Assembly: GCA_017403985.1 (NCBI GenBank)
Contig: JAFRDE010000040.1
Coordinates: forward strand, 1 to 32,062
Length of the DNA: 32,062 nucleotides
From: Ruminococcus sp.
GTDB lineage: Bacteria > Bacillota > Clostridia > Oscillospirales > Acutalibacteraceae
Direction: 5' to 3'
Both the position numbers and the translations under genes were made by a program. Positions 3,062 through 32,062 of this stretch are shown piece by piece; the stretch's first letter is position 1; each line of letters begins with the position of its first letter. The notes under the pieces are model-generated. The model was not told where the DNA came from and did not search any database. It saw only the letters and a list, made by a program, of their open reading frames with translations.

Positions 3062-3101
3062 AAACAGTTGCTTGATATTTATCGGGCAGCTGTTTTATTA
3101 T
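3062..3101 (+). terminator. Probable terminator of the XRE regulator, overlapping the next promoter
   Basis: AAACAGTTGC (3062-3071) pairs with GCAGCTGTTT (3086-3095) with one wobble over a 14-nt loop, followed by TTATTATAT. The stem is 43 nt after the stop codon. The loop contains the TTGATA that could serve as the -35 of the following gene, so termination and initiation signals are interleaved here. Confidence 0.5.
3072..3101 (+). promoter_or_regulatory. Candidate promoter for the dockerin protein gene
   Basis: TTGATA (3072-3077) and TATTAT (3096-3101) are 18 bp apart, with a start expected near 3108, about 39 nt before the ATG at 3147. It overlaps the hairpin of the preceding terminator, so one of the two readings may be wrong. 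Confidence 0.4.
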
Positions 3102-3146
3102 ATAGGTGGAAAACGGATTGCAAATCTTTTTGAAAGGATGGTTTTT

Positions 3147-4151
3147 ATGAAATCGATTATCACAAAATGTTTATCCTTCGTTGTTATTATTGCGGTGTTG
3201 ATATCTGTTCTCTGCTTCGGGTCAGGCATCAGTGCTTTAGCGGCTTCACAAAACGCAATCAGGATTATCGTTGACGGAGAAACCTTCGGAGATTATCAGA
3301 AAGTTTACTGCATGATCTACGACGAAACCGCCGATGAAGACGTTACCTCATGGATGAGCAAAAATGCGCAAATGACGCGCGAAGGCGAATCCGAAACATG
3401 GAGCTATGACCTCGACGCGCATGAAATCACGTTAGACCCGGCACATTGCTATACCGTTTCGTTCATGTCCGATACATCGACAACGGATGAGCTTGTCATC
3501 GACGGTTATGACGCCTCAAAGGATTATACCGCCGTATTCAGCGAGCTGTATACCTATAAATCGTTCACGGAGTTCCCCATATACCTGTACAAATGGATCG
3601 GAGAGAACGAGTTTGACGTCGGTATGGATATCATCCGGATAAACACCGATACCTGCCCCTTCTGGAAGCCCGTCGAAAACCTGTACTGCCGTATCGTTGA
3701 TGAAACGGCAAACGAGGAAACGATAGAAATGGGAAGGATGACGCAGGAAGCGGACCCCGATGTGTGGAGCTTCGATCTCGGTAAACACGGCGCAGCTCTT
3801 AATCCCGAACACACTTATTCTGTCGTATTCCACGACGGAAGAGGTCAGACGGAGCCGCTGATGATAGACAACTATGACCGCTCTGTCGACTATACCGCCC
3901 ATTATACCGGCAAGGATATGGTGTGGTCAGCGGATTATTCGTTCATCTACGGCGACGCCGATTGTGACGGCGAGATCACGATCATCGACGCGACCGTGAT
4001 CCAACGCGTGTTTGCGGGTTATGTATGTCGCAGCTTCAACGAGAAAGCAGCCGATGTTGACCGAAACGGTTTGGATATCAACGACGCAACCTTGATCCGG
4101 CGATATTTAGTTGAATTGATTGATCACTTTCCTGTTGAAAAAGACAGTTGA
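3147..4151 (+). CDS. Secreted protein with two tandem repeat domains and a C-terminal dockerin
   Basis: A 334-residue exported protein. Residues 1-35 are a signal peptide (MKSIITK, a hydrophobic stretch, then SALAAS). Two related domains of about 75-80 residues follow. They share VYCMIYDETADED / LYCRIVDETANEE, a W-S-Y/F-DL motif, H-x-YxVxF and the closing DxSxDYTA. Residues about 269-325 are a type I dockerin-like module with two EF-hand-type repeats (GDADCDGEITIIDATVIQRV and ADVDRNGLDINDATLIRRYL), which in this family binds a cohesin on a scaffold or cell-surface protein. No catalytic motif is visible; the repeats may bind carbohydrate or another surface ligand. The start is ATG 3147 with AAAGGA upstream; ATG 3138 overlaps that site. 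The dockerin call is secure, the repeat function unknown. Confidence 0.85.
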   Translation: MKSIITKCLSFVVIIAVLISVLCFGSGISALAASQNAIRIIVDGETFGDYQKVYCMIYDETADEDVTSWMSKNAQMTREGESETWSYDLDAHEITLDPAHCYTVSFMSDTSTTDELVIDGYDASKDYTAVFSELYTYKSFTEFPIYLYKWIGENEFDVGMDIIRINTDTCPFWKPVENLYCRIVDETANEETIEMGRMTQEADPDVWSFDLGKHGAALNPEHTYSVVFHDGRGQTEPLMIDNYDRSVDYTAHYTGKDMVWSADYSFIYGDADCDGEITIIDATVIQRVFAGYVCRSFNEKAADVDRNGLDINDATLIRRYLVELIDHFPVEKDS

Positions 4152-16346: not shown

Positions 16347-16734
16347 GGTAGGGTGACTGTAGTAATCCGACCCTGCTGAAAACGGCAGTATTCCGGCAAT
16401 TTTCGGCTTATCAATGCGTCGTCGTTCGCTGTTTTCGCTGCGAGCGGTCAAGCGTGACCGCTCGCGTGCTCGTTTAGCGACTCCTCCTTTCCCCACCGCG
16501 CAGGGGCGCGTCGGGGGTCCCCGGGATTGGCGCCAGCCTGCCTGCGCTCTCTGCACCGATACTTACTCGAAATCCTACTCATTTTCAGTCCATCGGAGTT
16601 TTGACGGAGCAGATTTTTGTCTGACCGCGGCAAAACCACAGCGAACCCTGACGGGTTCGCGAGGATTTTAACAAAGGGCAGGCGAAAAGATGCCCGTCAA
16701 AACCACGGTTCGGATTATTACTGTCACCCTGACC
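16347..16734. mobile_element. MITE-like element with 26-28 bp terminal inverted repeats
   Basis: The ends are inverted copies of each other: 16347-16372 (GGTAGGGTGACTGTAGTAAT, then CCGACC) and 16707-16734 (reverse complement GGTCAGGGTGACAGTAATAA, then TCCGAACC). They match at 24 of 26 positions plus two single-base gaps. The roughly 388 bp between the outer ends have no credible gene. They contain a perfect 11-bp hairpin (16440-16450 with 16455-16465, loop AGCG) and a right half that is repeated at the window end. No target duplication is evident. It is too small to encode a transposase, so it would be a non-autonomous element or an RNA-type repeat. Confidence 0.65.
16597..16728 (+). repeat. 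Structured repeat, right half of the MITE-like element (copy A)
   Basis: The first 108 nt (16597-16704) align without gaps to the reverse complement of 31950-32057 at roughly 75 percent identity by eye; beyond that both copies continue with GGTTCG...GT(C/T)ACC. Three small hairpins are shared: CAGA/TCTG near 16610, GCGAACCC-TGAC-GGGTTCGC (16641-16660), and a GGC/GCC pair near 16680-16695. The central hairpin keeps its pairing in the other copy through paired base changes. Confidence 0.75.
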
Positions 16735-16906: not shown

Positions 16907-19900
16907 ATGAAACAGCGCATCATTTCCATCATCATCTGTATCTTTCTTCTGGTCGGGATGATCCCGCTGTCGGCGATCGCTGCCGATGCGGTCGAAAGTG
17001 CCCCGGAACTGATCGAGGGAACCTACGCGCCGGGACAGGTCGTCGTTCTGTTCAACAGCAGTGCGATCGACGCCGATTCTGTTCCGGATAAAGGCGATCT
17101 TGCCGCGGTCGGAGCGGATTTCGGAGAGATGATGGACGCTTCGTCTTCGGCCGGAGAGGCTTACTCTGCCGCGGATGAAGAGATCGGTATTCTTTCGAAG
17201 AGTCTGGGCTCGGATTTCGTGCTGGAGGATACGCTGGTATTTGCCGACGCTCCCGATTCCTCGGGCGGTCTTGCTTCAACCGGTGCGTCAGCCGATACTG
17301 TATCGGACAGCGAGCTGACCGTTGCGCTGATTTCTTCGGATAAGTATGACACCGCGACGATGATCGGGATGCTCGGCAAAAACAAGAACGTCGTGAAGGT
17401 CGAACCGAACTACTATGTCTATCCGACGAGCTTTGACGATTATTCGCTCAACGATCCTTATAACAGCTATCTGTATAACGTCAACTCTCCCGCGGCTGAA
17501 AACACCGGCGGCGAGCAGGTGAACGACCGCGGAACATCCGCAGAGGATGCGCTATCGATCAACGCGTCCTCCGGCTGGAAAAAGCTCACCGGCGACGAGG
17601 ACGAGGTCGTTGTCGCCGTCATCGATACGGGCGTGCTCGCGGAGCATGAAGACCTAAAAGACATGATGTGGACGAATCCCGGCAACATCGGGCTGAAGGG
17701 CGAACACGGCTATGACTTTTACAACAACGACGGCGATCCGACCGACGATAACGGCCACGGCACCCACTGCGCCGGAACGATAGCCGCGCAGGCAAACAAC
17801 CTGAAGGGCGTTGCGGGCGTCGCGTCACAGGCGAACGTCAAGATCATGGCGCTCAAGCTGCTTAACGGCGGCGGTTCAAACGGAACAGAACAAGACGCGA
17901 CCGTATATCAGACCTTCGGATGCTACAACTATATCCATAAGGCTGTTATGGGCGGCGTCAATGTCGTTGCCGCCAACAATTCATGGGGCGGCGGCGGATT
18001 CTCTTCCATCTACGACGACATTGTATCTGTTTTGTGCGAAGACGGCGTGATCTGCTATATCGCCGCATCTAACGACGCATCTGACAACGATCGCACGCCG
18101 GTCAATCCCGCTAATTCGGATTGCGACAATACGGTTGTTGTCGGCGCGGCTGATATCACGGGATTGCCCACGGCGTTTTCCGATTACGGAAAAACCACCG
18201 TCGATGTTTTCGGCCCCGGAATGAATATCCTCTCCGCTATTTCCTATGACAGTTACTTCCCGTCGATTGATGACGCGGAGCTGTTCAACGCTACCACCGA
18301 GTATTACGGCGAGTTCAATGCCGACACCCTTGTCACGGACGGCACGGTCACTCCCTCTGTCGGAAATAGGGCAGGTGAGGACGTCAAGGCGTTCGGCAGC
18401 CTGCAATTTGTCAAGCAGCGTTCGCTGAAGGACGACGACGAATATGAGATCCCGGACGACGCGGAGCTGGAGCTTTCCGTAGAAAAGGGCAGACACTTCA
18501 CCAGTGACAATCCGTACCGTCTGAAAATCACCGTCAAAAACGCGCAGTACGGCGAGAGATACTTTTTCTTCTTCCCATACGAAAAGAACCCGCTGACCAC
18601 CGGCGACGACAACACATGGACCTCCGTTACTACAGAAAATGTCGCGAGCAGCGACGGCTCCTCTGCGATTTTCGGTGCGGGAGATCTATATCGGGATGAA
18701 GACGGAAAGATAGATTTTCAAGAGCTGGCTGTAGTAGGCCTTACCGGGCCTAAGTATGACCGGATAGAGCGCCACATCACCAACGCGGGTTTTCATACGC
18801 TGCTCAGCGCTGAGGACGCCGACGATAAGGAGATGTACTTCGGACTGTGCATGGTCAATGAATATGCACAAGGCGAGTCGCACGACGCTTCCATCTATCT
18901 CGACTCGATCGCGATTTCCAAGCCCGATATCGAGTTCGAGCCCAACACCTCATACGACCTGATGTCCGGCACCTCACAGGCGACGCCTGCCGTCTGCGGC
19001 GCGGGTGCGCTGCTGGCGGCGCTCAATCCGAGGCAGGAGAATGAATCCGGCGCCGATTACGCGAAGCGCATCAAAGCAAAGCTGCTGACCTGCGTCCGCC
19101 GGACTGACGAACTCGCCGATCTCTGTTCGACCGGCGGTTATGTCGATCTGTCCCTGATCGACGCGGCGATCCCCTCTGTGTCAGACGCCCTTTGCGACAT
19201 GGAGAACGAGAGTATCATTCTGACCGGCGAGAACCTGTTCGAAGGCAGCACCCTTACCTACAGACGCATGGCAGTCGACGGCGCGGAGGAAGAAGCGCTG
19301 CCGGACGATATGCCGGTCGAGTGCGCTTCCGACGGAACGAAGCTCATCATCCATAACGCAAAACGTCTGTTCTCTACCTATACCGCGTTCACCGTAACGG
19401 CTCAGAACGGCATGAAGGGCACGGGCAAATTCTTCCTCGTCAAGGGACAGAACAAGCTGCAAACAGTCAACTCCCTCACTCAGCCGTACAATCACGGCTA
19501 TATCGATACTCCCGTCCTTCTGACAGACGCCGACGGCGAAGGCTTGTACGGCTTTTACCCCTATACCGGCGAGGTTTGCCGATACGACGGCGAGCAGTTC
19601 ATCACCTATCGCGATACTGATTTACTCGAGGTGATGAGAAGATATCTCGTGGAAAACGGAGAAGATAAATATTCAGTATATAACGACTACAGAATATCTT
19701 GTTATACGCTTCTCTCACCCGCCTGTGAAAACAGCATTATCTATGTGCCGATAGTTATCTGTATACCCGAAGAACTCGCACAGGACGAGGAAGCCGGACA
19801 GATCAGTTACAGGAAAGACTGTTATCTGGCGTCCTTCGATCTGAACAGCGGCGATCATCACTGGCAATTGAGTGAGATGACGCTGCCGCCCGACGAGTTA

Positions 19901-20749
19901 TGGTATGACAACACGGCGTATTTTGTCCCGACCTTATTCAACGGCAAGCTCCTTTGTATCGGCGACAGCACCCTGATCGAAGAGGAGGACGCCGCGCTTC
20001 CGGTGTACAGCTATGATCTCACAACAAAGGAATGGACAAAAGAACCCGATCTGCCGTATGCTGCCGATTATTTTGACTGCGCCGTAAATAACGGAAGGCT
20101 CTATGTGATGTTCGGCAGCGATTCCGATACTTCTTTATCAAATGAGGAAAGGATACTTTCCGAGGTTTGGTGCTTTGACGGAGAGACATGGGAGCAGAAG
20201 CGTGACGATCTCAAATATGTCGGAAGGGTTTACGAAAATCAGGGCGTCCTGCTCCATGCCGATGCGATCGCCGCTGTAAAGAACGGATTGATTTTTATCG
20301 GCGCATCCGTGGACGGCGGCGGAAACATGTTCCTCTACAATACCGATACCGATTTGATAGAACCGCTGTATTATACCGTTTTCGACAGCGTCAGCGACGC
20401 GAGGAACGAGTATCAATCCTGTGTCGCGACACGCGACGGCATTTATTACTTATACGGATCGTACAACGATAACAATTCGTTCTGGAACCTCTGTCTGCTC
20501 CCTGAAAGCAGCGGTGTTTACGAGAGCCCGTATGAGAAACTCATCCCCGGCGACGTCGACGGGGACGGAACTGTAACAATCATTGACGCGACATGGATCC
20601 AGCGTAAGCTTGCCGCGTCTGCTGTTCCTGATTCATTCAACGATAAAGCGGCAGACGTCGACGGTGACGGCGTAGTGACGATCCTCGACGCGACATTGAT
20701 CCGGCGCTATCTTGCCGGTATGCCGTCTCCGCTGGATAAGACTCAGTAA
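16907..20749 (+). CDS. Secreted S8 (subtilisin-like) protease with inserted domain, Kelch-like region and dockerin
   Basis: A 1280-residue exported protease. The order is: signal peptide (1-25, ending SAIAADA); an I9-like propeptide to about 170 (ending KVEPNYYVYP); the S8 catalytic domain with D240 (VIDTG), H284 (DNGHGTHCAG), oxyanion N389 (AASND) and S690 (SGTSQATP). Between N389 and S690 lie about 300 residues where subtilisin has about 66. The surplus (about 450-682), with YGERYFFFFPYEKNP and DASIYLDSIAI, looks like a beta-sandwich inserted in the catalytic domain. A Kelch-like propeller region follows (about 890-1200, e.g. YSYDLTTKEWTKEPDLPYA). The C-terminus is a two-repeat dockerin (from about 1214, GDVDGDGTVTIIDATWIQRK and ADVDGDGVVTILDATLIRRY), so the protease is probably attached to a cohesin-bearing surface scaffold. 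AGGAGG lies 7 nt before the ATG. Confidence 0.92.
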   Translation: MKQRIISIIICIFLLVGMIPLSAIAADAVESAPELIEGTYAPGQVVVLFNSSAIDADSVPDKGDLAAVGADFGEMMDASSSAGEAYSAADEEIGILSKSLGSDFVLEDTLVFADAPDSSGGLASTGASADTVSDSELTVALISSDKYDTATMIGMLGKNKNVVKVEPNYYVYPTSFDDYSLNDPYNSYLYNVNSPAAENTGGEQVNDRGTSAEDALSINASSGWKKLTGDEDEVVVAVIDTGVLAEHEDLKDMMWTNPGNIGLKGEHGYDFYNNDGDPTDDNGHGTHCAGTIAAQANNLKGVAGVASQANVKIMALKLLNGGGSNGTEQDATVYQTFGCYNYIHKAVMGGVNVVAANNSWGGGGFSSIYDDIVSVLCEDGVICYIAASNDASDNDRTPVNPANSDCDNTVVVGAADITGLPTAFSDYGKTTVDVFGPGMNILSAISYDSYFPSIDDAELFNATTEYYGEFNADTLVTDGTVTPSVGNRAGEDVKAFGSLQFVKQRSLKDDDEYEIPDDAELELSVEKGRHFTSDNPYRLKITVKNAQYGERYFFFFPYEKNPLTTGDDNTWTSVTTENVASSDGSSAIFGAGDLYRDEDGKIDFQELAVVGLTGPKYDRIERHITNAGFHTLLSAEDADDKEMYFGLCMVNEYAQGESHDASIYLDSIAISKPDIEFEPNTSYDLMSGTSQATPAVCGAGALLAALNPRQENESGADYAKRIKAKLLTCVRRTDELADLCSTGGYVDLSLIDAAIPSVSDALCDMENESIILTGENLFEGSTLTYRRMAVDGAEEEALPDDMPVECASDGTKLIIHNAKRLFSTYTAFTVTAQNGMKGTGKFFLVKGQNKLQTVNSLTQPYNHGYIDTPVLLTDADGEGLYGFYPYTGEVCRYDGEQFITYRDTDLLEVMRRYLVENGEDKYSVYNDYRISCYTLLSPACENSIIYVPIVICIPEELAQDEEAGQISYRKDCYLASFDLNSGDHHWQLSEMTLPPDELWYDNTAYFVPTLFNGKLLCIGDSTLIEEEDAALPVYSYDLTTKEWTKEPDLPYAADYFDCAVNNGRLYVMFGSDSDTSLSNEERILSEVWCFDGETWEQKRDDLKYVGRVYENQGVLLHADAIAAVKNGLIFIGASVDGGGNMFLYNTDTDLIEPLYYTVFDSVSDARNEYQSCVATRDGIYYLYGSYNDNNSFWNLCLLPESSGVYESPYEKLIPGDVDGDGTVTIIDATWIQRKLAASAVPDSFNDKAADVDGDGVVTILDATLIRRYLAGMPSPLDKTQ

Positions 20750-21129: not shown

Positions 21130-23060
21130 ACGAAAAAGCGTTTTTCACGCCGTCTGATCGCAGCGTTTCTCGCGCTCGTGATGATGGTATCCATCGCATC
21201 GGCGACCATGGTGTCGGCGAACGCGGAAAAGACCAAAGAGATCGAAGCGGTACAGAAGGTCGTTGACTCGCTCCAGATCGTGCGCAAGTTCTTCCCTGAG
21301 GACAGCTTTGCCGGCAGGTACGCCGAGCCGGTCCTCGATTTGATCACCTCTGCTTTCGGCTTCACCCAGACCGATCCTACACAGGAGCAGCTCGACGAGC
21401 TCCTCAAGAAGGCGGAACCGCTCTCCGACCGGATGTCTGAGATGCAGAGCCATATCGAGAGCTTTATCGAGATCGACTCGACTCTCGCTCCCTTCGACAA
21501 CGAATATCAGGACGTCAAGGGCAATTTCATTCATGATGACTTCAACTCCACCCTGAGCTTCAAAAAGCAGATCGACGTGATCGAGAACAGCGACTATTCT
21601 GACGAGACCAAGCGCAGCGCGCTTTCCGATTTGGTAGGCGCTCCGTCTACATGGTCGGATAGGGACAAGCCCATCGGTTACTTCGACAAGTACGCGAACT
21701 ACCTGACCGGCTCCACCGGTATCTTCCACGACAAGAACATCTATGAGGCGGGTCTCGAGTACTATAAGGACAGGTCATCTTCGGACAGGAAGCGCTGAAC
21801 AAGCTGGACGAGGAATTCTTCCAGTCCGCCTATATGCTCTATCTCTAGTGCTCGAGCAAGCTGATCGTCTGTCTCGAGGCGCGCAGCCAGGTCCTGCGTG
21901 AGCAGGGCGGCGAGGCGAACGATCTCGAAGCTGACCTCTGCGACGCCAAGATCCTGTCCTATATCCGGAACATGGCGAACATCACCCGCAAGTACGCCAT
22001 CTCTCGTCTGAACGTACAGCCCGGTGAATTCTATGACAGAACCGATGATTCCACCGGTACTCAAACCATCCTGCTTGACCGCGAGATAGGCTGCAAGAAC
22101 TTCTATGAAGAAGCGATCGGGTTTTACTCCGATTCATATGGTGAGGTTGATCCCTACACCGAGGACGGCTGCAGTTTCATCAATCAAGACAGAATGAAGA
22201 GATGGACTAAAGGCTATCCCTCGGAAGCGTATGTCAAAACCACGCTGGAAAACGCGGGTTTGAGCACCGAGCAGATCGAATCAATCATCAGCTATATCAG
22301 GACGAACTTCGCGAATACCATGAGCGATGGGCACACGTTGAAGGACTTCCTGATCAACTGCGGCTATAATGTTGACAGCGAACAAAATGCAGAAGCGCTT
22401 TATTTGATTCATAAAAGCCGTGAGCCTGAAATCACGGGCGGTGACGGTACCAATACAAGTGCGACAGAAAAAATAGATGTATATATGCTTGACGGTCCCA
22501 GGATCCCGGAGGTCACGATAGCGGATTATGTCACATGTGCCGCAGTCGGAGATGACGGTACTGTCAGCCCGCTCGACCCCGTTCTCTATTTCAGAACAGC
22601 CGACTGTGACCGCGGTCATCTGACCGAAGCGATCGCGATGGCAGAGTCGATGGTAGAGGATCAGCAGAACGGCGCGGTACGCTACAGCGCTGAGAGCTTC
22701 GCGAACCTGAATGAAGCGCTCGAAATCGCCAAGGACTATGAGAACAGCACCAATCAGGAGGAGATCATCGATCAGGCGTATGAGCTGATCAACGCGATCT
22801 ACGACGTCCATGTGCTCGCGCCCATCGGCGACGCGGATCAAGACGGCTTCGTCACCATCATGGACGCGACTCTGATCCAGAAAAACTTAGCCAACATGCA
22901 CAACTCCGAGTTGTCCGAGGATCAGTCCTATCTGGCGGACGTTGATAAGAACGAACGGATCGAGACCATCGACGCGACCCTGATCCAGCGCTATTTGGCT
23001 AATATGACGTCGTTTTGGGCGAGCCCCGCGCGTAACACGATCGATCATATCCTATACTGA
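21130..23060 (+). pseudogene. Broken gene for a secreted helical protein with FIVAR-like domain and dockerin
   Basis: Three lesions separate this from an intact gene. First, the codon 7 nt after a perfect AAAGGAG, where the signal peptide (KKRFSRRLIAAFLALVMMVS, ending SANA) must begin, is ACG at 21130 and not ATG; no normal start precedes GTG 21178. Second, the frame slips by -1 near 21770, after GLEYYKD, and continues as QVIFGQEALNKLDEEFFQSA. Third, a TAG interrupts that frame at 21846-21848 (MLYL*CSSKLIV). Afterwards it is open to 23060. The ancestral product would have about 640 residues: signal peptide, a long helical region of unknown function, a FIVAR-like three-helix segment (RGHLTEAIAMAESMVEDQQN through EEIIDQAYELINAIYD), and a dockerin (GDADQDGFVTIMDATLIQKN and ADVDKNERIETIDATLIQRY). 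The downstream half could still be translated, but without a secretion signal. Confidence 0.8.
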
Positions 23061-23101: not shown

Positions 23102-23183
23102 TGCAGGATGAATATGCATGGATAATCCATAATTGCCTGCAAAGATGCCTGTTCATCCGGCAGAATCTTCGTATATAAATGAA

Positions 23184-23211
23184 AAATCCTGTCACCGAAG
23201 CGGCAGGATTT
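23184..23211 (-). terminator. Terminator of the GT2-GH3 / ligase / pyrophosphorylase operon
   Basis: Read on the minus strand, AAATCCTG pairs with CAGGATTT (23204-23211 with 23184-23191), with a small CCG/CGG stem inside the loop. It is followed by more T residues (CAGGATTTTTCATTT). It starts 32 nt beyond the stop codon at 23243. Confidence 0.7.
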
Positions 23212-23242
23212 CTACTTGAATGTTTTGTTGTGACAGCGTCGC

Positions 23243-24466
23243 TCATAATGCGACGTTGTTTTTCTTTAATAGTTCTCTCGCGCTTTCTACCGAGTCGACG
23301 CCTGTTGCGTTTTTGATCGGAGCAAATTCTTTGTCTCTGATAACTTCATAGGGCAGACAGCTCGAAAGCTGATGGATCATATCGAGAACCAGTTGCTCAA
23401 ATTTAAAACCGTTCGGTTCGGACGGCTTGATCAAAGCGCCGTTTTCGTCAATATACGGAATTTTTTTCTTGACCACGTGCATCGGCATTTTGTCGTCCGT
23501 CACCTTGGAAAGCTCGTCGGTGCGGAAAAGATAGTTCAGGATGACGCCGTAGTTGTACGCGGGATCGCCGTTTTTGTCCTTTGCGTTCATCATGTCCTCC
23601 GACAGCTCATAGTACTCTACGATAGAAGGTCTGCCGTCTTCAAGGCACATGACGCCAACCTTTTCATCCGGCGCCGCCTTGCGTACGACCTTTGAGCCTA
23701 CAGCGACATCCGCGAGGATCGTCGCGCCGATAAAGCAGGGGTCGCAGATGCGCTGGAGAACATTGTCTACCGCGAAGATGTTGATCCATTCGATCCCTTC
23801 ATCGGTCAGGATCTTGTCCAGACCGGCGCGCACCATGGAAGAATACCATCCGGCGTTGCCGTTCGGCGAGGTCGAGATATGATCTTTGGCGTCCATATAG
23901 AGTTTGCCGTTAAAATCACAGGCCGGCGCCATATCTTGCTTAAAGAATACGACTCTGTCTTCTTTATATCCGAAATAATCGTGTTCTTTAAAGAATTTGA
24001 CGGTCGCGTCGTTGTTCTTTTCACTGGTCATGATAAACAGTCTGATCCATGTATCTGTCTGTTTGACGACGTCAAGCAGATTGGAAACGATCCGCTCAAA
24101 GATATATACGGGCTTCGTGATACCGATATCATACATACCCTTCGGGTTATCGGAACCGAGCCTGGTGCCCATTCCGCCGGCAAGCAGAAGAGCGGCTGTT
24201 TTGCCAGCTTTGATGGCTTCTGTACCAACACGATTCAGCTCTTGACGGCGCGCATTGATTTCATCCAGCTGCATTGCCTCGAGAGGGGAGAATTCCCCGC
24301 GTTCATCACTCACGCCGCAATCGATCCTTTTCAAAACAGAGAAGTCGGTTTCTTCAATCTGCCTGAGCAGATTATCTTGCTGCGTTTTTGATAATTCGTC
24401 ATAATACCGCAGAATATGATCCTGACCGATGGCTGTCATTTTTGTTTTCGCTTCTGTGTAATTCAT
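23243..24466 (-). CDS. UDP-sugar pyrophosphorylase (UDPGP type 1, UAP1-like)
   Basis: A 407-residue nucleotidyltransferase that joins UTP to a sugar 1-phosphate (GlcNAc-1-P, Glc-1-P or similar), giving UDP-sugar and pyrophosphate. The nucleotide-binding loop is LLLAGGMGTRLGSDNPKGMY, about residues 92-111. The uridine/sugar site segment SPNGNAGWYSSM corresponds to the NGNGG motif of the eukaryote-type UAP/UGP enzymes, with one glycine replaced by alanine. NYGVILNYLF and PSEPNGFKFEQLVLDM are also typical. It belongs to this eukaryote-like family and not to the GalU or GlmU types. AGGAG lies 6 nt before the ATG. It is the last gene of a three-gene operon with the acyl ligase and the GT2-GH3 fusion, so it probably provides the donor for that glycosyltransferase. 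Which sugar it uses is not evident. Confidence 0.88.
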   Translation of the reverse strand: MNYTEAKTKMTAIGQDHILRYYDELSKTQQDNLLRQIEETDFSVLKRIDCGVSDERGEFSPLEAMQLDEINARRQELNRVGTEAIKAGKTAALLLAGGMGTRLGSDNPKGMYDIGITKPVYIFERIVSNLLDVVKQTDTWIRLFIMTSEKNNDATVKFFKEHDYFGYKEDRVVFFKQDMAPACDFNGKLYMDAKDHISTSPNGNAGWYSSMVRAGLDKILTDEGIEWINIFAVDNVLQRICDPCFIGATILADVAVGSKVVRKAAPDEKVGVMCLEDGRPSIVEYYELSEDMMNAKDKNGDPAYNYGVILNYLFRTDELSKVTDDKMPMHVVKKKIPYIDENGALIKPSEPNGFKFEQLVLDMIHQLSSCLPYEVIRDKEFAPIKNATGVDSVESARELLKKNNVAL

Positions 24467-24514
24467 AATGATCTCCTATATATTTTTAAATGGTTATTAT
24501 CTGCTTTTACGGGG

Positions 24515-26503
24515 TTAGCGAATCGGTTCGTGCTGCATCAGGAAATCTTTGATATCAAAATCTTTGTCATAGACAAAATCGATCATGACCTGATACTTAC
24601 CGTTGTCCAGACGCTTCATACTGCAGTCGTCAACCAGAGTCAGGAGAACGGCACTTGCCATTTTTCGCTGTTCTTCAAGGTCGGGATTTCTCTCCATATC
24701 GGAATCCGTGACCGTGATGCGCAGGCAGTTCTGCATATAGTCGAGCGAGATGTCGATATCGCCGATATCCTCGGCGGTCTCGTTGACGCGCATAATCAGG
24801 ATTTCTTCGACAGACTGACGGATCGCCAGAGCTTTTTCTCTGGTGAAGCCGAGATTCAGCGCGCACTCCTCAAACACCGCAGAGGCCGGCGTGATATTGT
24901 AGGTGCTGTTTTTGATCGACATGGAGATGATCCGGATGCCTTTTTCCAGCTTGCCTTCAAGAATCAGCCTGTGCAGTCTTCTGAGCATTTCAATGTGGAG
25001 ACTGCGCTGATCGATCTTTCCGTTCGCATTGAGCGGAAACTCCTTAAAAACAAAGTAGTAGACCGGAGATTTATAGGAGCCGACTTTTTCTTTCATGTAT
25101 GCTTTGATCTCAGCTTCATCAAACGCGGCTCCGGGCGCTAATGTTACACACGCTCCGAGATTTTCGCCGTAAATACGATCTTTATAGCCGAAGATCCTGC
25201 AGGCGCCTATCGACGGGTGAGACATCACCTGTGCTTCTATCTCTGCGGGAGCGAGATTCTCTCCTCCTTTGATGATGAGATCCTTGATTCTTCCGACAAT
25301 GCGGATATTGCCCTGTTCGTCAAAGATGCCGAGATCGCCGGAATGAAGCCAGCCGTCCGCGTCGATCGCCTGTTTTTCGGGCGGGAGCTTGTAATAGCTG
25401 TTTTTCAGATGGTAGCCGCGTGTAATGATCTCGCCGATCTCACCCGGCGGCAGGATCCCGCGCTCCTCGTCCCAGGCTGCCGCTTCGATTCCGTCTACGA
25501 CTCTTCCGACGGTGTTGTAGCGGATCGAAACATCATCGTCGGGTCTGGTGAGCGTATAGGTCGCGGAGGTCTCGGTCATACCGTATAAGTTGATGAAGGT
25601 GGTGTTGTACAGCGCGGTCTCAAAGCGCATGAATTGTACCGGGGAGGTATAGCTGCCTGCGATAGAGCAGATACGAACGCGCGGAGCGACCATCTCGGTA
25701 AGTTCTTTCTTGTCGATGATTCCCTGATAGATTGTCGCTACCGACCACAGATCGGTCGCGTCCTCTTTTTCTATGAGCTTGGCAATCACATCCGCCTTGA
25801 TCGCTTCGGGCAGGATCAGCGTTCCTCCGTTGGACAGGTAGATCCATGAAACAAATATCGCGTAGGCGTGGAACAGCGGGACGCCGAGCAGACATCTCTC
25901 GCCGCGGATCGAACTGATTTCCTTTGCGAGCTGTCTGACGACGTTAGTGATCGCATACTGTGAGGTCAGCACAGCCTTCGGAAAAGCCGTTGTGCCGGAA
26001 GTATAGATGATGTAAGCGTCGTCGCGGACAGTCCAGCCCGCCGTATCGGGAACATGGGGAGGAATTGTTGAAAAATCTTCGTCAACGATACTGACACACT
26101 TATCCGCGTCAAGCCCGAAAGCGTCGGCGATGGTTTGTGCGTCCTCCGCGTGACCGGAGACGTCATGCGTTTTTCCGAACATCATGTATGTCGTCTCGGC
26201 AAATTCAACCAGCGGTCCGGCATCCTTGAGCGAAAGATTCGCGTTCAGTATCAGCGCGATACCGCCTGAGCGGATGATACCGTAGTAGGTGTACAGCCAT
26301 GCCGGTGAGGCGGTCGCCCAAAGCGCGACCTTGTCGCCTTTTTTCAGTCCCATGTTAAGGAGAGCGGCAGCAACGCTGTCGATTTTGTTGACAAGCTGCC
26401 GATAGGTCAGTCTTATTTCTCCCATGACGATTGCTTCACGATCCGGAGCGGCGTCCGCCTGTTCCGTGAGTATGTCATAATAATACTTTTCAATCGTCTG
26501 CAT
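24515..26503 (-). CDS. AMP-forming acyl-CoA/acid ligase fused to an RsbW-like ATPase domain
   Basis: A 662-residue fusion. Residues 1-515 are an ANL-superfamily adenylating enzyme, which activates a carboxylic acid as acyl-AMP and usually passes it to CoA. Seen are the P-loop YTSGTTAFPK (167-176), the LYGMTETSATYT motif, HSGDLGIFDEQGNIRIVGRI with RIKDLIIKGGENLAPAEIE, and the C-terminal catalytic lysine in LNANGKIDQ. Residues 522-645 resemble anti-sigma kinases of the RsbW/SpoIIAB type: AIRQSVEEILIMRV takes the place of the N-box and LVDDCSMKRLDNGKYQVMID of the final strand pair. The N-box asparagine is absent, so phosphotransfer is doubtful and the domain may be structural or regulatory. GGGAGG lies 8 nt before the ATG, and the gene overlaps the end of the GT2-GH3 gene by 14 bp. 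The acid substrate is unknown. Confidence 0.85.
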   Translation of the reverse strand: MQTIEKYYYDILTEQADAAPDREAIVMGEIRLTYRQLVNKIDSVAAALLNMGLKKGDKVALWATASPAWLYTYYGIIRSGGIALILNANLSLKDAGPLVEFAETTYMMFGKTHDVSGHAEDAQTIADAFGLDADKCVSIVDEDFSTIPPHVPDTAGWTVRDDAYIIYTSGTTAFPKAVLTSQYAITNVVRQLAKEISSIRGERCLLGVPLFHAYAIFVSWIYLSNGGTLILPEAIKADVIAKLIEKEDATDLWSVATIYQGIIDKKELTEMVAPRVRICSIAGSYTSPVQFMRFETALYNTTFINLYGMTETSATYTLTRPDDDVSIRYNTVGRVVDGIEAAAWDEERGILPPGEIGEIITRGYHLKNSYYKLPPEKQAIDADGWLHSGDLGIFDEQGNIRIVGRIKDLIIKGGENLAPAEIEAQVMSHPSIGACRIFGYKDRIYGENLGACVTLAPGAAFDEAEIKAYMKEKVGSYKSPVYYFVFKEFPLNANGKIDQRSLHIEMLRRLHRLILEGKLEKGIRIISMSIKNSTYNITPASAVFEECALNLGFTREKALAIRQSVEEILIMRVNETAEDIGDIDISLDYMQNCLRITVTDSDMERNPDLEEQRKMASAVLLTLVDDCSMKRLDNGKYQVMIDFVYDKDFDIKDFLMQHEPIR

Positions 26504-29138
26504 ATGTTTGTCCTCCCTGTTTTATGATCCGTGATTTAAAAAATCTTTCCGTAACCGGATTATCAATAAATCTGACGGGTTTGATGAAGTCCGGCGGGAA
26601 ATTCAGCCGGAACATAAGCACATCTCTGTAGAAAAGCTGCGTTTCCTGTTCAATAAACTCAACTCTGACGGGGTTAATTTCGTGTCGGGCGACGGCGTTT
26701 CGATATGCTTCGTCGGTTTCCAGACTCTTTTCAATGAGATCAGCCGTTTTGGTTATATCGATGTCTGATATATCATCATGATCTGTTTCAAGCAGGATCA
26801 CAAGACCGTTGTGATTGCCGTTCAGCAAATATGCATAGTCGCTGATAAACAACCCTGTTTTGTTGCGAAGCTCTATCACGCTGCTGCTGACTGCTTTTTC
26901 AGTGACTGCGACTCCTTTCAGCCTTGCCGTCTGGGACGAATCGTGATCGTAGTAAAAGTACGGAACTGCGTTCTTTATGTGATCGACGCGTATCACGTCG
27001 TTCAGCCTGTATCGGTACAGACCCGAATAAGTCGAGATCAGCAGCGAGTAGCGCTTTCCGGCTTCTGTCTGAGGTGCAAACACCGCTTCGGCATTTTCAT
27101 CAGCGTCCGCGGGAACAAATTCGACGAACGCATTGCTCGGATCAAGAGCATAGAGCCCTTTCGTTCTTGTTTCCGTTCCTATAAGAGCGGTCAGTTCCAT
27201 ATAGCAGCCGTTTTCGTGTTCAATATTGCCCAGATACCTTTTGATGCTTTCTGTATAAACAGAAAAGCATCCGCCGCCGAAAGCAATCAGCCTCTTCATG
27301 TTTTTCCATATTTTCGGAACGACAGGACAGTCAAAGCCCTGCAGGAAGATATCCGACAGCTCAGCCGCTCTGTCGGGGTCGGCAGTCATGCGGTTTGTGA
27401 TGATTTCTCTGAATTCGTCGGAAATGATCTGACCGAAATGATCCGGTCGACCGCTTGCGATATCGGCGCACAGATTTATCCAGTTCTTTTCAAGGAATCG
27501 TAATGTACACCATGCTTCCCATGTGCTGGGAGCGATCATCTGGTCAACGTTTCTGTCAGCCAGCGCGAACAACAGTCTGATATACGTCAGCTCTGTCAGC
27601 TTATGGGGGAACAGGACCTCCGGCGGCGCAGTGAACAGATTATTCTTTTCGAATAATGAGAGTTCCCGGTCGGCGAATAACTGAGAAAGAATCGAGCCGT
27701 GAGCGGTGTTTACATAAGCGTTGTCATTGAATCGGTTCTTTTGCGGCATGCTTTCCAGCATGAGGAAGGTCCTTTTTCCTCTGCAGGCGTCAAGGTACAG
27801 CTTTTTCAGCGGTTCCAGCTGGATATCCGTGCAGGGGATAAGCTTGGGGTTAGACATTCTGCCGAGCGTGAACATATAGCTTTTGATCGGATCGGATGTA
27901 ATGATGCCCGATTCTCCGATGTTTGTCTGAAGCTTAATCAGCGGCTCATAGGTATCATAATCCGATCGGGGAACGGATGAGCGGAATCCGGTGAGTGTAA
28001 GGATCCTTGTGAACTCATATCTGATCCCCATATCGGTAGTCTGATTGCGGTGAAGGATATTGCGCAGTACGATCTGATAGGGCGAGAGCGCCTGAGCCGA
28101 TTTCTCGTCAACAGCGATGAGCGTATCGCTGCCGGAGCTGCCGATATATTTTTCCGGCTCGAGGATCACGGCGCGGGGAAATTCATATCTTTCTCTGACG
28201 GCTTTTTCGGAGTACAGCTTTGAGACTCTGAGCGGTGTTATCTGTTCGAGATACGGCGCTAAGATCTCCTTGATCGTGTTCCTGTCCTCAAGCGTCAGTG
28301 AATCGGAAGCGATCATGAATCCGGCAAGAACACAGCACAAGCCGGAGATGATCGCGTTCATGTCGAATCCGTAAGCAAGTCCCGCGTCAAAAATCTTCTT
28401 GTAACCCTGCGCAAAAGAGATCAGCGTTTGAGCGTCCTTGCCGGCGTTCTGTACCAGCGATCCGCTGTTGATAAAATAGTGGTATCCGATCATCTGGGGA
28501 AGATAGCAGATTTTGTCGGCGTGTCCGTAGCATTCCAGATTGAACAGATAGTCCTCACCGAAGGGGACCTCTTCATCGAAACGAATGGCGTTTTCGTCCA
28601 GAAAACGCTTGTCATAGATGCGCGAAGTCACCATACCGCATACGCCGCTGAACATTTTTTCATCATCGCGGTGATCCATATTGACGACGATTTCTTCGCG
28701 CGTCTGATCCCAGAGAACAATTTCCGTAACCGGTCTGTTGTGATCGCTTTCCAGCTCATATTCTCTTCGGAACCAGGTGATCTGCGCCTGCGTTTTCTCC
28801 ATATGAAACAAAGCCTTTTGCAGACACTGCGGCGTAAACATATCGTCAGCGTCAAGAAAACCGATATACGGAGCCGCGGCGCGCTCCAAGCCGTAGTTTC
28901 TGGGAGCGGAAGGCGTACGCTTGCCGTCGTTCAGAATAAAGATCTTTACGTTATCATAGCCGCAGAGCAGTTCCGTTACGCTGCGTCGGTATTCCTCGTC
29001 GCTATTGTGTACGACCACGATCCATTCGATCTTTTCGAACCCGATCGTCTGACAAAACATGGATTCGCAGCATTTTTTGAACAGCTCCTGTTCAACGTTG
29101 AAAAATGGAGTGATGATAGAGATATCATAATTCATCAT
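26490..29138 (-). CDS. Fusion of glycosyltransferase family 2 and a GH3-type (auxin-responsive) adenylating domain
   Basis: An 882-residue cytosolic fusion. Residues 1-230 are a GT-A glycosyltransferase 2 (DISIITPFFNVEQELFKKCC, then PSAPRNYGLERAAAPYIGFL and the metal site DADD at 96-99). After a helical link of about 150 residues, about 400-850 match the GH3 family, whose members adenylate an acid and join it to an amine: FGGGCFSVYTESIKRYL, GTETRTKGLYALDPSNAFVE, and the strongly typical STYSGLYRYRLNDVIRVD with D714. The GH3 phosphate loop (usually SSGTxSGxxKxIP) reads TLGRMSNPKLIPCT at 424-437, so it has lost most of its Ser/Thr residues. The start is ATG 29138, 8 nt after AAGGAGA; the frame stays open further upstream, but only through the promoter. 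It is the first gene of the operon, with a TTGACA-17-TATTAT promoter. Both domain calls are well supported; the product is unknown. Confidence 0.85.
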   Translation of the reverse strand: MMNYDISIITPFFNVEQELFKKCCESMFCQTIGFEKIEWIVVVHNSDEEYRRSVTELLCGYDNVKIFILNDGKRTPSAPRNYGLERAAAPYIGFLDADDMFTPQCLQKALFHMEKTQAQITWFRREYELESDHNRPVTEIVLWDQTREEIVVNMDHRDDEKMFSGVCGMVTSRIYDKRFLDENAIRFDEEVPFGEDYLFNLECYGHADKICYLPQMIGYHYFINSGSLVQNAGKDAQTLISFAQGYKKIFDAGLAYGFDMNAIISGLCCVLAGFMIASDSLTLEDRNTIKEILAPYLEQITPLRVSKLYSEKAVRERYEFPRAVILEPEKYIGSSGSDTLIAVDEKSAQALSPYQIVLRNILHRNQTTDMGIRYEFTRILTLTGFRSSVPRSDYDTYEPLIKLQTNIGESGIITSDPIKSYMFTLGRMSNPKLIPCTDIQLEPLKKLYLDACRGKRTFLMLESMPQKNRFNDNAYVNTAHGSILSQLFADRELSLFEKNNLFTAPPEVLFPHKLTELTYIRLLFALADRNVDQMIAPSTWEAWCTLRFLEKNWINLCADIASGRPDHFGQIISDEFREIITNRMTADPDRAAELSDIFLQGFDCPVVPKIWKNMKRLIAFGGGCFSVYTESIKRYLGNIEHENGCYMELTALIGTETRTKGLYALDPSNAFVEFVPADADENAEAVFAPQTEAGKRYSLLISTYSGLYRYRLNDVIRVDHIKNAVPYFYYDHDSSQTARLKGVAVTEKAVSSSVIELRNKTGLFISDYAYLLNGNHNGLVILLETDHDDISDIDITKTADLIEKSLETDEAYRNAVARHEINPVRVEFIEQETQLFYRDVLMFRLNFPPDFIKPVRFIDNPVTERFFKSRIIKQGGQTYADD

Positions 29139-29211: not shown

Positions 29212-29240
29212 ATAATATCAAATACGGCGTATACTGTCAA
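29212..29240 (-). promoter_or_regulatory. Consensus promoter of the GT2-GH3 operon
   Basis: On the minus strand TTGACA (29235-29240) and TATTAT (29212-29217) are exactly 17 bp apart. The start is expected near 29205, giving a leader of about 67 nt before ATG 29138. A perfect -35 and spacing point to substantial, possibly constitutive expression. Confidence 0.8.
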
Positions 29241-29573: not shown

Positions 29574-31652
<2,079 letters not shown>

Positions 31653-31744: not shown

Positions 31745-31924
31745 ACGGGGAACCGCCTGTTTGAGTTCGGAAAGCAGTTATACTGATATCCAATAAAGCC
31801 CTTCTAAAGCCCTTCAACATTTATTAGTGACCGGTTTTGATGGGGATAATATCCCGCTGCTTACAGCGAAAGAACCCGCAGGGGAAGGTTTATCCTCTTC
31901 GGCCGATACCTCCGTCCGGGATAA
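31745..31924. other. Intergenic stretch near the window end
   Basis: No gene is seen. It contains a short tandem repeat (AAAGCCCTTC twice, near 31793-31820), the palindrome GGGATA-A-TATCCC near 31842-31854, and then the flank of the repeat element. Confidence 0.4.
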
Positions 31925-32057
31925 GGTAACGGGAGTCGAACCCCCAATCGGTTCTTGGCGGCATATTTGTGCCTGCTCTTCGTCAAAATCCTCGTGAATA
32001 CGTCAGTATTCGCTGCGGTTTTTCCTCGATCAGACTCAAATCTGCTCGCCAATAACT
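31925..32057 (-). repeat. Structured repeat, second copy (copy B), cut by the window end
   Basis: On the minus strand this matches the right half of the MITE-like element at 16597-16728. Its central hairpin is GCGAATAC-TGAC-GTATTCAC (31994-32013), with the same loop as copy A but different paired bases. Its outer end, GGGGGTTCGACTCCCGTTACC on the minus strand, differs from copy A, so it belongs to a related subtype. The other half would lie beyond 32062. Confidence 0.75.
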
Positions 32058-32062
32058 GCTTC

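Follow-up and report, generated by a model that had tools for sequence, protein, structure and literature searches.

A GT2-GH3 operon with an acyl ligase bearing an RsbW-like domain in Ruminococcus sp., and the partner-switch domains found around related loci

On the minus strand of the 32,062-nucleotide contig JAFRDE010000040.1 of Ruminococcus sp. (assembly GCA_017403985.1), all of which was analyzed and is called the window below, a three-gene operon encodes a fusion of a GT2 glycosyltransferase with a GH3-fold domain (GT2-GH3), an acyl-activating ligase of the ANL family with an extra C-terminal domain, and a UAP1-like pyrophosphorylase. The extra domain adopts, in a structural model, the fold of RsbW and SpoIIAB but has lost their ATP-binding residues, and STAS and RsbW-type domains recur in the vicinity of GT2-GH3 genes. 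Partner switching is a textbook mechanism for the control of sigma factors. The most likely reading, to which we give about an even chance, is a pathway to an exported acylated glycoconjugate in which partner switching gates acid activation.

The ligase and the GT2-GH3 fusion

The genome that carries the window is designated G000 and its contigs C46 (the window), C28, C43, and C63; G415, G451, G489, G505, and the like are other genomes of the genus, and L numbers denote the loci compared, L003 being that of C28. The operon consists of the following features.

29212-29240 (read from 29240 to 29212), minus strand: sigma-70-type promoter TTGACA-17-TATTAT, 11 of 12 consensus matches
26490-29138, minus strand: GT2-GH3 fusion gene, 882 amino acids (aa)
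28149-29138, minus strand: GT2 glycosyltransferase part, residues 1-330 (PF00535, E 2.3e-17)
26490-28133, minus strand: GH3-fold part, residues 336-882, motifs I and II degenerate (PF03321, E 4.5e-42)
24515-26503, minus strand: gene of the ANL ligase with the C-terminal extra domain, 662 aa
24989-26503, minus strand: ANL acyl-activating ligase domain, residues 1-505 (PF00501, E 2.9e-65; PF13193, E 9.3e-12)
24515-24988, minus strand: RsbW/SpoIIAB-fold domain, residues 506-662 (PF13581, E 0.011; AlphaFold2 model; alignment)
23243-24466, minus strand: UAP1-like pyrophosphorylase gene, 407 aa
about 23181-23212, minus strand: intrinsic terminator hairpin downstream of UAP1 (-15.1 kcal/mol, z -3.65)

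The extra domain of the ligase matches the Pfam family HATPase_c_2 (PF13581) only below its cut-off. In an AlphaFold2 model built from 14 sequences (predicted local distance difference test [pLDDT] score 76.4, predicted template modeling [pTM] score 0.71), the first 18 PDB matches are all RsbV/RsbW, SpoIIAB, or anti-sigma-F entries (E 5e-7 to 1.3e-5), with histidine kinases ranking below them; the RsbW fold is thus that of a model, not of a solved structure. At the positions that we take to be the N box and the G boxes of the RsbW-type alignment, the window has EEILIM and TDSDMERNP. Because the N-box Asn and the G boxes are gone, this is, on its sequence, probably a noncatalytic docking domain. 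The first-pass annotation had recognized an ATPase-like domain here; that its fold is the one of RsbW, a partner-switching protein, had been missed. The region is matched in 3 of 161 genomes of the genus, strongly in G000 and G505 and weakly in G489 (E 6e-4), and the G415 contig stops inside the ligase gene. The ligase proper carries TSGTTAFPK, YGMTE, SGDLG, and NGK, matching the ANL set of P-loop, YGxTE, SGD, and C-terminal NGK lysine.

All domains of the operon show purifying selection between congeners, although the ratios of nonsynonymous to synonymous changes (dN/dS) are rough, since synonymous distances are near saturation in several comparisons. Against G505, dN/dS is 0.057 for the ANL domain and 0.106 for the extra domain; against G505 and G415, it is 0.115 to 0.126 for the GT2 part and 0.157 to 0.171 for the GH3 part.

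The GT2 part displays the GT-A fold, the DxD motif, and the catalytic acidic residue of its family, with D96, D98, D99, and E195 invariant and D196 nearly so among 22 aligned sequences. The GH3 part is above the PF03321 cut-off (the fusion also matches PF23571, E 1.4e-16), and in a model of all 882 residues (pLDDT 86) its top Foldseek match is a plant GH3 (E 8.6e-33). Its motifs tell a different story: motif I (SSGTSxGxxK) is replaced by TLGRMSNPK and motif II (Y..SE) by YMELTALIG, versus YASSECYFG, and only motif III (YR..D) is kept, as YRLND. The paralogous fusion on C28 is degenerate in all three, motif III included. The bacterial GH3 enzyme OlsH is reported to depend on S115, in motif I, and to be modulated through S293, in motif II (PMC12493201); S115 is essential there, and the window position aligned with it is lost. 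The earlier count of two acid-adenylating enzymes is therefore not supported: with motifs I and II lost, the GH3 domain of the window was rejected as the second, and the ANL ligase, whose motifs are intact, is the only credible adenylating enzyme of the operon. Since the GH3 fold is kept in the model and selection still acts, the GH3 domain retains some function. Equivalence to OlsH was considered and rejected (27.7 bits against a model cut-off of 620).

Across the family, motifs I and II are retained in 8 of 51 distinct fused rows (L070, L073, L074, L076, L079, L080, L084, and L109), while motif I is retained in all 13 rows of standalone GH3, one of which has T for the second S; these counts exclude the mislabeled ANL row L061 and the duplicates L067 and L068. 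The fusion of L078, examined separately, is degenerate in motif I. Judged from these alignments, most fused GH3 copies, though not all, have lost the motifs, and the family members form a natural gradation of GH3 motifs, some intact and some eroded. A supposed restriction of ANL or nonribosomal peptide synthetase (NRPS) genes to loci where the GH3 motifs are lost found no support (0 of 8 versus about 9 of 41, the latter two being approximate hand counts; Fisher p 0.32).

The operon itself is as first annotated: the three minus-strand frames follow one promoter, the first two share 14 bp (26490-26503), and a terminator closes the unit, its hairpin being equaled or bettered by 2 of 200 shuffled sequences. 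The overlap is present again in G505, and G415 has a 4-bp gap instead; the -35 box and its flanking bases are kept at two G415 loci, one upstream of GT2-GH3 (L035) and one at a deletion scar (L061). A palindrome at 23232-23260, listed by the scan, faces the opposite way and is not the terminator of the operon. An Rfam search of the window returned nothing at gathering thresholds.

Partner-switch genes around GT2-GH3 loci

Of 394 genomes sampled from the order, 13 have the GH3 domain (PF03321), and G000 alone has it in frames longer than 800 aa. Among 161 genomes of the genus, full-length GT2-GH3 was found in three: G000, G415 (80% identical; read with one TAG near the end), and G505 (79%). In these three species, the fusion adjoins an ANL gene, and ANL-RsbW and GT2-GH3 occur together with a condensation-like (C-like) gene in a Lachnospiraceae metagenome-assembled genome (MAG; L086). 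A scan of genome contigs yielded 49 loci, by their titles mostly from rumen or gut MAGs, with isolates such as Butyrivibrio sp. YAB3001, Lachnospiraceae KH1P17, and Prevotella sp. tc2-28. The records span Lachnospiraceae, Ruminococcus, Selenomonadaceae, Synergistaceae, and Prevotella.

Neighbors were counted at 51 loci (the window, L003, L035, L036, and L069 to L115), of which 50 hold the fusion, 39 non-Bacteroidota and 11 Bacteroidota by record title; L115 holds only the gene start. The duplicates L067 and L068 (of L035 and L036) and L037, a 98% copy of L003, had been dropped, and the window and L003 entered the count separately, although they are probably one cluster. At 19 of the 39 non-Bacteroidota loci and at none of the 11 Bacteroidota loci, a STAS or RsbW-type domain is encoded no more than 5 kb from the fusion. 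All 23 such genes (11 STAS and 12 RsbW-type) are on the strand of the fusion, and none is found at 5 to 10.5 kb. The near-versus-far binomial p values are 0.005 (STAS) and 0.003 (RsbW-type), but the loci are related, so that these values are not independent, and the hidden Markov models for RsbW, STAS, and other domains were seeded partly from the same loci, mostly from near genes, so that the comparison leans toward near. At the STAS density of G000 (8 in 2.68 Mb), 0.9 STAS would be expected where 11 were observed. In a preliminary count, the fusion also recurs beside C-like proteins, ABC pairs, and esterases.

Of the 11 STAS domains, 6 are joined to an APH-type kinase and 5 stand free. Ten of 11 STAS sequences compared carry the Ser that we take to be the equivalent of the SpoIIAA phosphorylation site. 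STAS directly precedes the fusion in G505 and L069. Among the 12 RsbW-type domains, 3 are on a ligase (the window, G505, and L086), 1 is a contig-edge fragment (L085), and the other 8 are on a MATE transporter (L072, L075, L076, L077, L078, L084, L097, and L112). MATE proteins with a C-terminal RsbW-type domain (e.g., L072, 8207-9955) are found in Bacillota and Synergistaceae, as well as at the standalone-GH3 loci L047 and L049; the N-box Asn is kept in those of L072, L075, L076, L077, L084, L097, and L112 and lost in those of L047 and L049.

A SpoIIE phosphatase is encoded about 6 kb from the fusion in G505 and about 10 kb from it on C28. The C terminus of the C28 protein matches RsbW/SpoIIAB models, with the N box and G boxes present by eye, so that both a kinase and a phosphatase that might act on STAS are at hand in the same cluster. 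Phosphatase, STAS antagonist, and RsbW-type partner are found together on a single contig in G505 and on C46 plus C28 and make up a candidate partner-switching system. Standalone GH3 loci of the order keep similar company in 6 of 11 cases (L039, L042, L047, L049, L050, and L051) and lack it in 5 (L038, L041, L045, L046, and L048), in a table that left out L040, L043, and L044; MATE-RsbW, GH3, and SpoIIE occur in L047 and L049, and STAS, GH3, and SpoIIE-RsbW in L050 and L051. Elsewhere, a STAS-APH fusion directly precedes a SpoIIE-RsbW protein on C43 of G000 (L125, 9369-12618), and in L124 and L126 genes with a STAS domain lie close to C-like genes. No sigma factor gene was recognized among the genes examined, in the course of searches not aimed at sigma factors.

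Among side observations on the fusion, those of L093, L100, L103, and L114, from Prevotella and Blautia MAGs, adjoin or lie within about 4 kb of multi-ANL (NRPS-like) genes encoding 1,877 to 2,130 aa; L103 has an ATP-grasp gene downstream, with relatives in L114.

The probable larger cluster and the UAP1 gene

The window stops 410 bp after a glgX gene that neighbors the operon, and two further features bear on what follows it.

29574-31652, plus strand: glgX-like debranching enzyme, placed between left and right arm of the probable cluster (PF00128/PF02922)
31922-32062, plus strand: repeat at the contig end that equals bases 1 to 141 of contig C28

The repeat has 20 matches in the genome, 15 of them of at least 64 bp, and three that are full length and 100% identical: the end of C46, the start of C28, and, on the other strand, the start of C63. 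Because both C46 and C63 match fully, the overlap alone leaves two predecessors for C28. A single G415 contig (L035) holds the start of a STAS gene, a GT14 gene, glgX, GT2-GH3, and the ligase, and since glgX there adjoins the GT14 gene and the STAS gene start, G415 favors C46; glgX occupies the same place beside GT2-GH3 in G415 and G505. We infer from this that C46 joins C28, on which there follow genes for GT14, STAS, acyltransferase 3, three GT2 proteins, a second GT2-GH3 (35% identical to that of the window), a C-like protein, a carboxylesterase, two ABC exporters (nearest to MsbA models, below cut-off), another C-like protein, an APH-like kinase, an HGSNAT-like protein, and the SpoIIE phosphatase. 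Most of these kinds of gene share a single contig in G505, where one strand encodes SpoIIE, HGSNAT-like, C-like, GT2, and glgX and the opposite strand STAS, GT2-GH3, ANL-RsbW, C-like, esterase, GT2, two ABC proteins, and UAP1. With its 3 genes and the 15 of C28, glgX aside, the whole cluster would have about 18 genes, of which the operon is probably the left arm. The earlier remark that no carrier protein, flippase, or polymerase is adjacent is correct within the window, but the likely next contig has acyltransferases and exporters. The name of the C-like proteins is provisional and derives from an invariant H...D..G sequence pattern (H111, D115, and G118); the family has no sequence match in PDB.

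The UAP1 protein has the UDPGP domain (PF01704, E 2e-35), the LAGGxGTRLG signature, and UAP1-type closest relatives (AGX1, AGX2, and other UAP1s, phmmer E about 1e-75); its dN/dS is 0.042 to 0.12 against G505 and G415 and not computable for G451. UAP1 is found in 4 of 161 genomes of the genus (G000, G415, G505, and G451). The GlmU-type uridylyltransferase domain, in turn, is present in 51 of 60 evenly drawn genomes (E 4e-47 to 7e-58) and as a contig-edge fragment in one more (G434); it lies within about 1 kb of prs in the three examples fetched, and that of G530 was recognized as the uridylyltransferase part of GlmU, next to ribose-phosphate diphosphokinase. It was not found in G000 or G451 nor, in a second search, in G415 or G505. 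Over both searches (65 distinct genomes), it is missing from 4 of 4 UAP1 carriers versus 6 of 61 others (Fisher p 3e-4), 6 of the 10 genomes of the second search being hand-picked noncarriers; in the even draw alone, it is missing from 2 of 2 carriers versus 6 of 58 others (p about 0.016, by hand). The 6 noncarriers without the domain, which are listed as 75 to 91% complete, have neither enzyme by these searches, so that some absences may be missing sequence, a doubt that extends to G415 (91% complete) and G505 (89%).

Because its carriers lack the GlmU uridylyltransferase, UAP1 probably replaces GlmU, and UDP-GlcNAc/GalNAc would be its product. This makes the dedicated sugar donor of the first-pass annotation unlikely, as does the 4-of-161 distribution: UAP1 stands apart from an intact GT2-GH3/ANL pair in G451, where full-length GT2-GH3 was not found, and in G415, where it follows a deletion scar and GT2-GH3 and the ligase start are kept on another contig. 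At the scar (L061, 8854-10533), the GT2-GH3 promoter and first codons are joined to the end of the ligase gene, with most of both genes absent, UAP1 kept, and a fragment of a C-like gene beyond; such retention fits an enzyme that cannot be lost. In contrast, UAP1 is within the cluster in G505, and in the Lachnospiraceae MAG of L087 a UAP1 gene (77% identical) directly adjoins GT2-GH3 with a gap of 24 bp, which speaks against a merely accidental position. If the swap is real, a peptidoglycan-precursor enzyme sits inside a dispensable-looking cluster.

Several observations concern the surrounding DNA. The 141-bp repeat type is intergenic and is found also at 16549-16694 of the window; the C28 copy spans L003 1-279 and is bounded by a perfect 21-nucleotide inverted repeat (1-21 and 259-279) that resembles a tRNA T arm. 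It may be an element like a miniature inverted-repeat transposable element. A tRNA as such was discounted: none was called in the window or L003, and one tRNA-Leu was called in L134. The right arm is 97.7% identical between G000 and G415 over 7.9 kb (L037, i.e., G415:C125, versus L003 6441-14385), whereas the window operon with glgX is only 82 to 83% identical; either the right arm was transferred recently or a MAG may be contaminated. Dockerin-bearing proteins at 16907-20749, 21972-23060, and 3072-4151 of the window, one of them a subtilase, suggest a cellulosome-type host.

Proposed pathway, alternatives, and known systems

Under the reading that we favor, the operon would be the left arm of a cluster for glycoconjugate biosynthesis and export. 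The ANL ligase would activate a carboxylic acid, fatty or otherwise; the other glycosyltransferases, together with the GT2 domains of both GT2-GH3 proteins, would build a short glycan from UDP-HexNAc and other donors; the condensation-like proteins, membrane acyltransferases, and perhaps the esterase-fold enzyme would attach the acyl groups; and the MsbA-like ABC pair would export the product. The GH3 domain of the window, no longer adenylating, might bind the acceptor, condense, or serve as a scaffold for ANL-activated acyl groups, and UAP1 would ride in the operon, supplying cell-wide UDP-GlcNAc in place of GlmU. A membrane sensor (SpoIIE phosphatase plus RsbW kinase) would set the phosphorylation of STAS, and the dephosphorylated STAS would dock on the ATP-dead RsbW domain of the ligase and alter its activity; the chemistry of the product, the docking, and the direction of control are inferred. 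An acylated glycoconjugate was also the product proposed at first, and it is still the best guess, strengthened by the glycosyltransferases, acyltransferases, esterase, and exporters of the probable right arm, while GH3 adenylation is not supported and the donor role of UAP1 becomes unlikely.

Several points weigh against this reading. The partner switch is not obligatory, since at 20 of the 39 non-Bacteroidota loci and all 11 Bacteroidota loci, on contigs that are short in some cases, neither STAS nor an RsbW-type gene lies as near as 5 kb. SpoIIE is that near in none of the 50 fusion loci. The STAS of L076 is the one without the presumed phosphorylated Ser. The RsbW-like domain of the ligase is divergent, as its Pfam score indicates, and the alignment behind its model included better RsbW-type domains. 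The C46-C28 join crosses a repeat that also ends C63, and no condensation-domain family is significant for the C-like proteins, the best being PapA_C at E 0.0056 in 2 of 10 members. Product, substrate, and interaction are all predictions.

The alternatives, which are not mutually exclusive, divide over control and over product. A less probable but serious alternative is that the RsbW-like domain is a structural relic that only dimerizes or stabilizes the ligase, with the nearby STAS, RsbW, and SpoIIE proteins controlling transcription through a sigma factor, in the manner of B. subtilis or of HmpUVW and SypAE. The N box and G boxes are indeed lost, the domain is less constrained than the ligase (dN/dS comparison with G505 only), and the partner switches described in PMC8256260 act mostly on gene expression. 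However, loss of ATP binding need not abolish STAS binding, purifying selection acts on the domain, STAS stands immediately before the fusion in two loci, and the same kind of domain is attached to the MATE transporter in 8 GT2-GH3 loci and in L047 and L049.

As to the product, a somewhat unlikely rival, in our view, is that the three genes are related only in part, the GT2-GH3/ANL pair being a member of the cluster and UAP1 a housekeeping gene, and that what is made is a surface polysaccharide rather than a small acylated compound. The complementarity of UAP1 and GlmU, the several GT2 genes and one GT14 gene, the likeness of the GT2 part to TarP of wall teichoic acid synthesis, and, next to a Selenomonas locus (L107), genes for Wzy_C and a Mur ligase are all consistent with it, but the C28 run from GT14 to SpoIIE, every gene of which is labeled, includes no Wzx/Wzy pair, and carboxylesterase and C-like genes recur near the fusion. 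The original scheme, in which UAP1 makes a dedicated UDP-sugar, GT2 transfers it, and GH3 and ANL both adenylate toward an amidated or acylated glycoconjugate, has become quite improbable: even with the GT2 and ANL motifs intact, UAP1 close by in L087 and G505, and motifs I and II kept in 8 fused rows, these motifs are lost in both the window GH3 and its C28 paralogue, the UAP1 carriers lack the GlmU uridylyltransferase, and UAP1 is present in G451 and beside the G415 scar that lacks the other two genes.

Returning to partner-switch control of acid activation, we give a little under an even chance to its broader form, namely, that rumen and gut bacteria have repeatedly joined the sigma-regulating switch directly to metabolism, with an RsbW-type domain on an acyl-activating ligase or a MATE flippase and STAS on an APH-type kinase, so that STAS phosphorylation would toggle GT2-GH3 acylated-glycan synthesis and export without transcription. 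Docking-type domains in enzymes and transporters would then signify posttranslational control of metabolism. The parts are of known kinds; among the matches listed in the open-access literature, we found no description of GH3-glycosyltransferase, RsbW-enzyme (ligase included), or MATE-HATPase fusions or of a similar rumen GT2-GH3 cluster. As the interaction is a prediction, we class the finding as a variant of partner switching rather than a new kind of system.

The closest known systems are the Bacillus RsbU/RsbV/RsbW and SpoIIE/SpoIIAA/SpoIIAB switches, which share with G505 and with C46 plus C28 the SpoIIE-type phosphatase, the STAS antagonist, and the RsbW-fold domain; here, in contrast, that domain is fused to an acid-activating ligase (in relatives, to MATE), and the window copy is without ATP-binding residues. 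In Vibrio fischeri SypA/SypE and Nostoc HmpU/V/W, a STAS switch is likewise tied to a polysaccharide locus, but the domains are regulators there, whereas here they are part of a biosynthetic enzyme or transporter; the target of SypA is given as unknown (PMC8256260). The OlsH/OlsI ornithine-lipid pathway also pairs a bacterial GH3 enzyme with an alpha/beta-hydrolase to make an amino lipid (PMC12493201). OlsH keeps recognizable motifs, unlike the window GH3, a GT2 fusion in which motifs I and II are gone. The nearest solved structures to the GT2 part are the wall teichoic acid glycosyltransferases TarP and RmlT, including TarP with UDP-GlcNAc; the present protein differs in its fusion to GH3, and no teichoic acid gene was recognized among the C28 genes. 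Finally, the UAP1 protein belongs by sequence to the same family as the eukaryote-type UAP1/AGX enzymes, but at 407 aa it is shorter than AGX1 and AGX2 (about 505 to 522 aa) and comes from a bacterium without the GlmU uridylyltransferase that most of the congeners tested possess.

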